Origin: Aquisalimonas sp. 2447
GTDB lineage: Bacteria; Pseudomonadota; Gammaproteobacteria; Nitrococcales; Aquisalimonadaceae
Assembly (NCBI RefSeq): GCF_012044895.1
Contig: NZ_CP050695.1
Coordinates: 2,448,501 to 2,512,500 of the forward strand
Reading direction: 5' to 3'
DNA length: 64,000 nucleotides
Notes under the pieces: model-generated
Told to the model about the DNA's origin: nothing
Databases searched by the model: none
What the model saw: the letters and a program-made list of their open reading frames with translations, nothing else
Made by a program: the position numbers and the translations under genes
Part shown: positions 21,630 to 29,317 of the stretch, piece after piece
Layout: each line of letters opens with the position of its first letter
How positions within the stretch are numbered: the first letter of the stretch is position 1

Positions 21630-21658
21630 TTGACGCTTACGTAAAGGGCATCTATGTT
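21630..21658 (+). promoter_or_regulatory. Sigma70-type promoter with LiuR-like operator in its spacer
   Basis: TTGACG (21630-21635), 17 bases, then TATGTT (21653-21658) forms a near-consensus sigma70 promoter pointing toward the importer operon. TTGACGCTTACGTAAA (21630-21645) overlaps it and contains the TTACGTAA core typical of LiuR operators of the MerR family. MerR proteins bind between -35 and -10, which fits this layout. It lies about 240 bp upstream of the first gene, so the leader is long; the operator at 21785-21804 is within it. Confidence 0.6.
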
Positions 21659-21784
21659 TTCTCTCAAGGTGCGCGCTGCGATGGATGCATGAAAACAGAC
21701 TTTATTTCAGCATCATAACCGCATACGCACAGGCGAAACCTTCACCTGACAATGAGTAAAGACATTACCCCTTTGTGTCTTGCT

Positions 21785-21804
21785 TTACGTTTACGTTAAC
21801 GGAA
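21785..21804. promoter_or_regulatory. LiuR-like operator upstream of the importer operon
   Basis: TTACGTTTACGTTAACGGAA contains a near-perfect 14-bp palindrome at 21788-21801. It matches 19 of 20 bases of the site at 29298-29317 beside liuR. It lies about 95 bp upstream of the GTG at 21899. Confidence 0.78.
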
Positions 21805-21898
21805 AGGTTTGCGCCTGCCCGAGCAAGGGCCTGGAGGAGAATGAAGGGCGGCGGTCACAGCAGCCCTCCGACAACACACAATTCGAGAGGACGGTCCC

Positions 21899-22699
21899 GT
21901 GGCAGCGACTGAGCAGCGAACGGACACGCCCACCCTGCAGTGCAGGCAGATCATGCGCCGCTTCGGCGGCCTTGTTGCGCTGAAGCCCACCGACCTGGAG
22001 ATCCGCCCCGGCGAGATCTTCGGGCTGGTGGGCCCCAACGGCTCCGGCAAGACCACCCTGGTCAATGCCGTCACTGGCTTCTACCCGCCCCAGGAGGGAG
22101 AGATCCTGTTCGAGGGGCGGCCCATCAATGAACTCAAACCCTACCGGGTCGCCGCCCAGGGCATCGCCCGCACGTTCCAGAACGTGGCGCTGTTCAAGGG
22201 CATGAGCGTGCTGGACAACATCCTGCTCGGGCGCCACGTGTTCATGCGCCCCAGCGCCCTGGCCTCGCTGTTCTACTGGTGGTGGGCGCAGAAGGAAGAG
22301 GTGCGACACCGGGAGAAAGTGGAGGAGGTCATCGATCTGCTGCAGCTGGAGAGCGTCCGGGACGAACCCGTGGACGTGATCCCCCTGGGCGTGCAGAAGC
22401 GGGTGGAACTCGCCCGGGCGCTCGCCGCCGAACCGCGTTTCCTGATCCTGGACGAACCCATGGCGGGCATGAACCAGGAGGAGAAGGAGTACATGGTGCG
22501 GTTCATCCTCGACGCCCAGGAAGCGCTGGATCTCAGCATTCTTCTCATCGAGCACCACATGGACGTGGTGACCGCCATCTGCGACCGGGTGGCCGTGCTC
22601 AACAACGGCGAGAAGATCGCTGAGGGCACCGCCCAGGACGCCATCAAGGATCCGGCCGTGGTCGCCGCCTACATCGGGAAGTCGCGCGATGCAGCCTGA
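21899..22699 (+). CDS. ABC transporter ATP-binding protein, LivG type
   Basis: A 266-residue ATPase of the branched-chain amino acid (HAAT) importer class. Walker A is GPNGSGKTT (about residues 43-51). The signature motif is shifted to PLGVQKRVELARALAAEP instead of LSGGQ, and Walker B is FLILDEP. The GTG start at 21899 follows a GAGAGGA site. It is first in an operon with an acyl-CoA ligase, two permeases, a binding protein and a LivF-type ATPase, and overlaps the ligase by 11 bases. A similar altered signature occurs in LivG proteins encoded with acyl-CoA ligases. Confidence 0.93.
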   Translation: MAATEQRTDTPTLQCRQIMRRFGGLVALKPTDLEIRPGEIFGLVGPNGSGKTTLVNAVTGFYPPQEGEILFEGRPINELKPYRVAAQGIARTFQNVALFKGMSVLDNILLGRHVFMRPSALASLFYWWWAQKEEVRHREKVEEVIDLLQLESVRDEPVDVIPLGVQKRVELARALAAEPRFLILDEPMAGMNQEEKEYMVRFILDAQEALDLSILLIEHHMDVVTAICDRVAVLNNGEKIAEGTAQDAIKDPAVVAAYIGKSRDAA

Positions 22700-27975: not shown

Positions 27976-28806
27976 ATGACTGCAGATGCAGCACAGGCAA
28001 CCGGCACGGCCCCGGGCACGATCCTCTCCATGAGCAACGTGGAGGTGATCTACGACAAGGTCTTCCTTGCCATCAAGGGCGTCTCGCTGGAGGTGGGGGA
28101 TGGCCAGATGGTCGCGCTGCTCGGCGGCAACGGCGCAGGCAAAAGCACTACGCTGAAGACCATCAGCGGCCTGCTGGCACCGGAACGCGGCGAGGTCACC
28201 CGCGGCCACGTGCACTTCCGTGGCGAGGACCTGGCGCCGCTCAGCGCCTCCCAGCGGGTACAGCGGGGGCTGGTGCACGTCCTCGAGGGGCGACGGATCT
28301 TCGGTCACCTCACGCCAGAGGACAACCTGCTGGCCGCCTACCCGGTGCGGGGCAGCCGTGCCCGCTACCAGCAGCTCCGCGACCAGGTCTTCACCTACTT
28401 CCCGCGCCTGAAGGAGCGCTCACGGACCAAGGCGGGGTACCTCTCCGGCGGCGAGCAGCAGATGCTGGCCATCGGCCGCGCGCTGATGACCGAGCCCAAA
28501 CTGCTGATGCTGGATGAACCCAGCCTGGGCCTCGCACCGGTGCTGGTGGAGGAGATCTTCGCCATCATCCGCGAGATCAACGCCAACGAGGGTGTCAGCG
28601 TGCTGTTGGTGGAGCAGAACGCCGCTGCGGCCCTGGAAATCGCCCACCACGCCTACCTGGTGGAGAACGGCCACATCGTCATGAGCGGGGAAGCCGATGT
28701 CCTGCGTCAGAACCCGGACGTACAGGAATTCTATCTCGGCGGCACCGGCAAGGTGGACTACCACAATGTCAAGCACTACCGGCGCCGCAAGCGCTGGCTG
28801 GCGTAA
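27976..28806 (+). CDS. ABC transporter ATP-binding protein, LivF type
   Basis: A 276-residue ATPase with Walker A GGNGAGKST (about residues 52-60), signature LSGGEQQMLAIGRALM, Walker B LLMLDEPSLGL and a switch histidine region VLLVEQN. The C-terminus has a basic tail (HYRRRKRWLA) longer than in LivF. ATG 27976 follows a GGGGA site; it is 58 bp past the binding protein gene and closes the operon, converging on the thioesterase gene. Confidence 0.92.
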   Translation: MTADAAQATGTAPGTILSMSNVEVIYDKVFLAIKGVSLEVGDGQMVALLGGNGAGKSTTLKTISGLLAPERGEVTRGHVHFRGEDLAPLSASQRVQRGLVHVLEGRRIFGHLTPEDNLLAAYPVRGSRARYQQLRDQVFTYFPRLKERSRTKAGYLSGGEQQMLAIGRALMTEPKLLMLDEPSLGLAPVLVEEIFAIIREINANEGVSVLLVEQNAAAALEIAHHAYLVENGHIVMSGEADVLRQNPDVQEFYLGGTGKVDYHNVKHYRRRKRWLA

Positions 28807-28816
28807 GCGCCGCAGC

Positions 28817-29248
28817 TCAGCGCGCGGTGGTCACCGCCATGGTGGCCGTCACCCGGGCCACCAGGCGCTCTTCGCCGTCGCGTTCGGCGAGCACGTCCGC
28901 CTCGGTCACCATCAGGGTGCGCCCGGCGCGCAGCACCGTGGCCCGGCAGCGAAGGCGCTCGCCCACGCCCGGGCGCAGGAGGTTGACCTTGTACTCGGCA
29001 GTGAGAATGATGTCGTCGGCCGCGACCAGCGTGAACGCGGCGCAGCCGGAGGTGTGGTCCGCCAGCGCGCCCTGGACGCCGGCATGCACGTAGCCGTCCT
29101 GCTGAAGGTGGGCATCGGTCACCGTGAGCACGGTTTCGCAGTAACCGGGGCGCGCGTCGACGAAGCGCGTACCCAGGTTGCGCATGAACGGAGGCTCCTC
29201 GACGAGGGCCATGACGCGTTCGCGGTAGGCAGGATTCTTCGGTTCCAT
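28817..29248 (-). CDS. PaaI-type hotdog acyl-CoA thioesterase
   Basis: A 143-residue single hotdog-fold protein. The HAGVQGALADHTSGCAAFT segment holds the PaaI/4HBT-II catalytic region (HxG...D). Members hydrolyse stalled acyl-CoA esters and release free CoA. The start at 29248 (MEPKNPAYRERV) has a GGGAG site; extending further upstream would run through the operator and into liuR. It is divergent from liuR with the shared LiuR operator between, so it likely belongs to the same regulon. Confidence 0.88.
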   Translation of the reverse strand: MEPKNPAYRERVMALVEEPPFMRNLGTRFVDARPGYCETVLTVTDAHLQQDGYVHAGVQGALADHTSGCAAFTLVAADDIILTAEYKVNLLRPGVGERLRCRATVLRAGRTLMVTEADVLAERDGEERLVARVTATMAVTTAR

Positions 29249-29297
29249 GAGGACTCCCTGGCCCGGAGGCAGTACTGTCACCGCCACGGGCGGAATG

Positions 29298-29317
29298 TTA
29301 CGTTTACGTAAACGGAA
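29298..29317. promoter_or_regulatory. LiuR operator in the divergent thioesterase/liuR region
   Basis: TTACGTTTACGTAAACGGAA contains the perfect 14-bp palindrome CGTTTACGTAAACG (29301-29314). It sits about 50 bp from each divergent start codon, so one site can control both directions. The family motif for LiuR is built on the same TTACG/CGTAA core. Confidence 0.85.

Follow-up and report, generated by a model that had tools for sequence, protein, structure and literature searches.

The importer-ligase operon beside the liu genes

The window, by which we mean the whole stretch of 64,000 nucleotides that was analysed, comes from the 3.97-Mb genome of a halophilic gammaproteobacterium close to Aquisalimonas. 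It contains a six-gene operon for an ABC importer and an AMP-forming acyl-CoA ligase, followed by a divergent hotdog thioesterase gene, a MerR-family regulator gene and liuABCDE. The preliminary description had given this gene order, and profile matches to the domains of the products confirmed it. The operon opens on the forward strand with a livG-like ABC ATPase gene (21899..22699; PF00005 and BCA_ABC_TP_C, with LivG as the best NCBIfam model at a score below its cut-off). This gene is overlapped by that of a FadD11-like AMP-forming acyl-CoA ligase of 656 amino acids (22689..24659; PF00501 and PF23562), which carries the motifs SSGTTG, YGQTE, TGD and TRTRKLRR intact and kept its place inside the operon in all complete orthologues. 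Genes follow for a livH-like permease (24671..25552; PF02653), a livM-like permease (25557..26630; PF02653; likely start ATG 25557, judged from the sequence and the length of orthologues), a periplasmic substrate-binding protein (26664..27917; Peripla_BP_6) and a livF-like ABC ATPase (27976..28806; PF00005; likely start ATG 27976, read from the sequence). With LivF, LivG, LivH, LivM and Peripla_BP_6 all encoded together, the LIV/HAAT-type importer set is complete.

The thioesterase gene lies on the reverse strand (28817..29248; PF03061, and TIGR00369 above cut-off) and diverges from liuR across the predicted operator O3 described below; it was retained beside liuR in G005, G006, G008, G011 and G413. 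The liuR gene (29346..29762, forward strand) encodes a MerR-family regulator of 138 amino acids (PF13411 and PF09278) with a MerR-type HTH that was conserved across the relatives. Metal-type NCBIfam models scored far below cut-off for this product, and liuR, as here, adjoined liu genes in almost every relative whose sequence was read. Downstream on the same strand are liuA for an isovaleryl-CoA dehydrogenase type enzyme (29819..31000; assigned from its acyl-CoA dehydrogenase domains and its place in the cluster), liuB for the methylcrotonyl-CoA carboxylase beta subunit (31019..32626; PF01039), liuC for a methylglutaconyl-CoA hydratase type enzyme (32643..33434; PF00378), liuD for the methylcrotonyl-CoA carboxylase alpha subunit (33442..35442; biotin carboxylase domains and PF21139, BT_MCC_alpha) and liuE for an HMG-CoA lyase type enzyme (35759..36772, start uncertain; PF00682).

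Two other features were observed upstream of the cluster. A sensor kinase with a PilJ-type N-terminus and a HAMP domain is encoded together with a LuxR-type response regulator at 17530-20030. An inverted pair of the 24-bp palindromic element GTAGGGTGGACCTTCAGGTCCACC lies at 21472-21563, upstream of the promoter of the operon. Across the genome, with up to three mismatches allowed, this element matched 112 times on the forward strand and 116 times on the reverse strand, a tally in which some palindromic copies count once per strand; its reversed control gave zero. It is a REP-like family, often found as head-to-head pairs about 67 bp apart.

LiuR-type sites and the predicted promoter

Three LiuR-type operators were predicted, all on the forward strand. 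O1 (21630..21651; TTGACGCTTACGTAAAGGGCAT) scored 23.8 bits and lies in a promoter spacer; the orthologues carry the near-identical TTGACGCTTACGTAAACG. O2 (21784..21805; TTTACGTTTACGTTAACGGAAA), 154 bp downstream of O1, scored 34.3 bits and is the site to which the preliminary description had drawn attention. O3 (29297..29318), between the thioesterase gene and liuR, is conserved in orthologous liuR promoters and scored 36.0 bits, a value inflated by the presence of this very site in the training set. The matrix was built from the liuR-side sites of relatives and the window's own liuR site, with importer sites left out, so that the scores of O1 and O2 are free of this effect. When overlapping registers of the same sites were set aside, the next independent site in the window reached 5.7 bits. 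Direct comparison of 21785-21804 (TTACGTTTACGTTAACGGAA) with 29298-29317 (TTACGTTTACGTAAACGGAA) bore out the reported difference of one base, with 1 mismatch in 20.

A 16-mer core with at most three mismatches gave 8 matches in the window, all at 21630, 21784-21805 and 29297-29318, against an expectation of 0.01 from shuffles. In the whole genome, TTACGTNNACGTNAACGNAA with at most two mismatches was found just at O2 and O3, and its reversed control had zero matches. With a looser motif, again at two or fewer mismatches, the number of genome matches was about that of the reversed control, and weak extra sites were not counted. A candidate at 2,805,013 was rejected, having 6.5 bits and lying within an MCP-type chemotaxis reading frame. 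Conserved palindromes of the LiuR type stand ahead of both the importer operon and liuR. The passages found in PMC7238569 give no sequence for the published ILV box.

The only promoter-like match in 21400-22000 was a predicted sigma-70 promoter of the importer operon, TTGACG-17-TATGTT (21630..21658, forward strand), where shuffles expect 0.1. Its -35 hexamer and 17-bp spacing were kept in the orthologues, and O1 sits between the -35 and -10 hexamers. Classical MerR activation uses a spacer of 19-20 bp, as described for metal-responsive members (PMC5045206), and the passages on LiuR in PMC3223726 term it a repressor that regulates leucine catabolism. The spacer was 17 bp, not 19-20 bp, in the window and wherever the conserved distal site was present. 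Because of this spacing, an operator between the hexamers would suit repression by blocking RNA polymerase better than classical MerR-type activation.

A LiuR-type site preceded the importer operon in all 12 close relatives in which the promoter was read, one per genome and with the window included (the window, G001, G003, G004, G005, G006, G008, G011, G015, G023, G033 and G413). G009 stands outside this count, its contig being read from livG onward only; its livG is preceded by another ligase gene, as in G006. Operons that open with a second ligase (L120 and L131) have such a site too. Both Ectothiorhodospira loci (L073 and L074) also have a LiuR-type site ahead of the operon, in addition to the 12. 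The distal site TTGACGCTTACGTAAACG, with a -10-like hexamer at 17 bp, was present in G001, G004, G005, G006, G008, G011, G015, G023, G033 and G413. In Ectothiorhodospira the distal site is TTGACGTNGACGTAAACG and the spacer is likewise 17 bp; G003 has the proximal site only. A second site was found 71 to 95 bp downstream of the first in G004, G005, G008 and G011. The helical phasing of O1 and O2 was considered as a sign of looping, but their spacings of 42 to 154 bp are not numerous or uniform enough to support such a claim. In G015, the importer (L123) and liuR (L124) are on different contigs, and L123, with zero liu genes in the 17 kb read, still has its LiuR-type site. Conservation of the site is therefore not explained by linkage.

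The proposal that the operon shares LiuR control with the liu genes thus gained support from sites in 12 of 12 relatives, one of them unlinked, and for a computational claim the case for co-regulation is strong. The proposal that 21785-21804 is the operator held in part: it is a strong match, but the conserved site embedded in the promoter is 21630-21651, which had gone undiscussed. In the O1 copy of this genome one base of the usual core is altered (CGTAAAGGG instead of CGTAAACGG), which weakens the site and leaves O2 with the better match. Of the two sites, that at 21785 shows more variation, and the main operator is probably the one at 21630.

Links to leucine and valine genes and related modules

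The predicted link of the operon to the isovaleryl-CoA pathway is supported by its gene neighbourhoods in several genera and in an alphaproteobacterium. Liu genes border the operon in G001, G003, G005, G006, G008, G011, G023, G033, G413 and Ectothiorhodospira, and it lies upstream of liu, downstream of liuE or in divergent orientation. On a contig of an uncultured Rhodobacteraceae bacterium, an alphaproteobacterium, liuB-liuD-liuE-liuC run straight into livG-ligase-livH-livM-SBP-livF, and the matrix scan found no LiuR-type site there. The same pairing of liu genes and importer hence occurs under two regulatory settings, which argues for a metabolic reason. A LiuR-type site was also absent from the alphaproteobacterial operon copies scanned, and the module is therefore not dependent on LiuR. 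The Gemmobacter and Paracoccus copies were not beside liu genes, so the substrate could serve outside leucine breakdown as well. On plasmid NZ_CP067125 of Paracoccus alcaliphilus (L079), the operon lies beside a LysR regulator gene, a gene for a short PaaK-like ligase and choline/carnitine genes.

An extra ligase gene, related to NCBIfam NF009233, stands at the front of the operon in Ectothiorhodospira, G006 and G413, and a relative of it at the operon end in G033. In Ectothiorhodospira (L073 and L074), a universal stress protein gene and the ETF and ETF-QO genes come after the operon; the latter two are what would be expected for electron transfer from acyl-CoA dehydrogenases.

The window genome has two further importer-ligase modules, L134 at 3.17 Mb (G000:C1:3168000-3184000) and L135, and the matrix scan found no LiuR-type site at either. 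L134 has the same six-gene set and a further PaaK-like ligase gene, and its ligase is 39% identical to that of the window. We call it valine-linked because of its neighbours, namely mmsA, an acyl-CoA dehydrogenase gene and an enoyl-CoA hydratase-like gene; its methylmalonate-semialdehyde dehydrogenase matched TIGR01722 at 764 bits. Another module lineage lies beside mmsA in G015, G016 and G034, with LiuR-type sites (L124, L125 and L129). In the ligase tree, read with the L131 row left out, these modules formed separate clades, which suggests that branched-chain acyl-CoA pathways gained importer-ligase modules on more than one occasion. Duplicated relatives with 43-46% identity in the binding protein occur in the gammaproteobacteria G319 and G209. 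In G319 (L132, G319:C80:6000-25000), there are two successive operon copies and an extra tandem binding-protein gene, and the binding-protein gene set of G209 is similar. Liu genes and a LiuR-type site were both absent from the G319 stretch read, and nothing in its copies came near the top matrix scores.

Predicted substrate and place in the regulon

In E. coli LivJ, Ser79, Thr102 and Glu226 are the residues that hold the alpha-amino and alpha-carboxyl groups of the amino acid. A check of the numbering returned the expected S79, T102, Y150, Y202 and E226. Across the binding-protein orthologues these residues were replaced (Ser79 by Pro, Thr102 by Gly, Glu226 by Val and Tyr202 by Ala), and the window protein thus lacks the ligand residues of a branched-chain amino acid importer. 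In their place a GR-D motif, with Arg131 in the window protein, was invariant. The binding protein is 96% identical to that of a MAG named Aquisalimonas. Its closest solved relatives are 4ru0, whose entry names no ligand, and 4n03, which bears the title of a fatty acid ABC transporter binding protein; the latter was second-best by sequence and by fold at 19% identity. The structure model of the binding protein was moderate (pLDDT 75, pTM 0.80), and the 129-143 loop with the GR-D motif was of low confidence. In the ligase, the SSGTTG P-loop, YGQTE, TGD and the C-terminal catalytic Lys expected of the ANL superfamily were all present and invariant. Its AlphaFold model was poor (mean pLDDT 62.6, pTM 0.39), a PDB sequence search gave generic ANL matches only, and its C-terminus is of the long-chain type (PF23562), a poor fit to a C5 acid.

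A dedicated import route for a branched or isoprenoid carboxylic acid had been proposed. The loss of the LivJ residues and the co-encoded ligase with intact motifs favour an acid over leucine, and it is reasonable to expect that the operon serves the import and CoA activation of a carboxylic acid. The isoprenoid part of the proposal was disfavoured, as set out below. The likeliest substrate is a free acid with an iso or 3-methyl branch that would yield isovaleryl-CoA or 3-methylcrotonyl-CoA; the candidates are isovalerate, 3-methylcrotonate and longer iso-odd fatty acids.

Other readings of the locus were weighed against this one. The LIV-type architecture, and leucine catabolism being under LiuR (PMC3223726), would suit an importer of leucine or branched-chain amino acids that supplies the liu pathway and has the ligase as an incidental passenger. 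Leucine import is unlikely, and this reading as a whole improbable, given the replaced LivJ residues with the invariant motif in their stead, the conserved place of the ligase gene within the operon, and 14 other Peripla_BP_6 matches in the genome, which could include a leucine importer. A long-chain-type ligase would also fit an acyclic isoprenoid acid such as geranylate or citronellate. The Atu route for such acids has a chemistry akin to that of the leucine route and feeds the leucine pathway in pseudomonads. It needs a geranyl-CoA carboxylase, however, and none was apparent beside MCC in the genome, where we found one MCC-type carboxyltransferase and one 30% relative whose reading frame is much longer; we therefore hold an isoprenoid substrate to be highly improbable.

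It is possible, though unlikely, that the module is devoted to medium or long iso-branched fatty acids (e.g. iso-C15 and iso-C17) with beta-oxidation ending at isovaleryl-CoA, the valine-linked paralogue doing likewise for iso-even chains and isobutyryl-CoA. The long-chain-type domain of the ligase, the title of 4n03, the presence of both a leucine-linked and a valine-linked module, and the ETF and ETF-QO genes in Ectothiorhodospira speak for this; the distance of the 4n03 match, an operon with no beta-oxidation genes beyond liu and the lack of an identified candidate for the outer-membrane step speak against it. Finally, the one-base difference between O2 and O3 and the degraded core of O1 might mean that, despite its LiuR-like sites, the operon is mainly under other control, O2 being a relic of a duplicated liuR promoter. 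This is very improbable, as O1 resembles the distal site of the orthologues and not the liuR site, persists in a copy that is separated from liu (L123), and the likeness of O2 and O3 ends at the site borders.

We consider it probable that the importer-ligase operon is a LiuR-repressed member of the LiuR regulon that feeds the isovaleryl-CoA/methylcrotonyl-CoA route. LiuR bound to O1, between the -35 and -10 hexamers, would shut the promoter, and O2 could contribute further repression as a roadblock or by looping. Accumulation of an inducer, which is probably an intermediate of leucine breakdown (an acyl-CoA or an acid), would release LiuR from O1, O2 and O3 together. The cell would then make the ABC importer for the predicted carboxylic acid and the ligase to activate it, and at the same time LiuABCDE, which would degrade the product to acetoacetate plus acetyl-CoA. 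If acyl-CoA accumulates, the divergent thioesterase, also on O3, may free CoA. More tentatively, and with some doubt, halophilic proteobacteria may hold a family of such modules, every member serving a single branched-chain acyl-CoA pathway (leucine/isovaleryl or valine/isobutyryl). These modules would use high-affinity ABC uptake to scavenge free branched or iso-fatty acids and would be switched by LiuR with the downstream pathway.

LiuR is known for the degradation of amino acids already in the cell, and its regulon would, if this is true, extend to taking up and activating free branched acids. In hypersaline sediments such acids arise from the fermentation of protein and from membrane turnover. 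This reading would also predict a substrate class for LIV-type importer-ligase operons that currently carry amino acid transporter annotations, and the compact regulon of two operons offers a setting for measuring the LiuR inducer and its mode of repression.

Among known systems, E. coli LivFGHMJK (LIV/HAAT) has all the component families found in the operon; unlike it, the window operon has a ligase gene inside, and its binding protein is without the amino-acid residues of LivJ. The LIV-type aromatic-acid importers of Rhodopseudomonas palustris (p-coumarate and 4-hydroxybenzoate) also import carboxylic acids, and the folds 4f8j, 4evq and 4ey3 match the binding protein, but identity is about 15% and the window operon is associated with liu rather than with the breakdown of aromatic compounds. 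The Thermomonospora curvata protein 4n03 is the second-best match, yet distant. The valine-linked paralogue shares the six-gene set and differs in its diverged ligase, its extra PaaK-like ligase gene and its lack of a LiuR-type site. The LiuR regulon of gamma- and betaproteobacteria was reportedly described by Kazakov et al. 2009 and is said to be in RegPrecise as well. A literature search, with regulon target tables outside its scope, turned up no description of an ABC importer for branched acids that is paired with a ligase. The regulon is well known, with 103 genomes covered according to the passages on LiuR in PMC5343134; these passages and those in PMC3223726 make no mention of an importer and ligase as a LiuR target. 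As in the known regulon, whose regulator is described as a repressor, a MerR-family regulator gene lies beside liu and palindromic sites precede leucine-catabolism genes; here, unlike there, an ABC importer and an AMP-forming ligase are predicted to belong to it as well.
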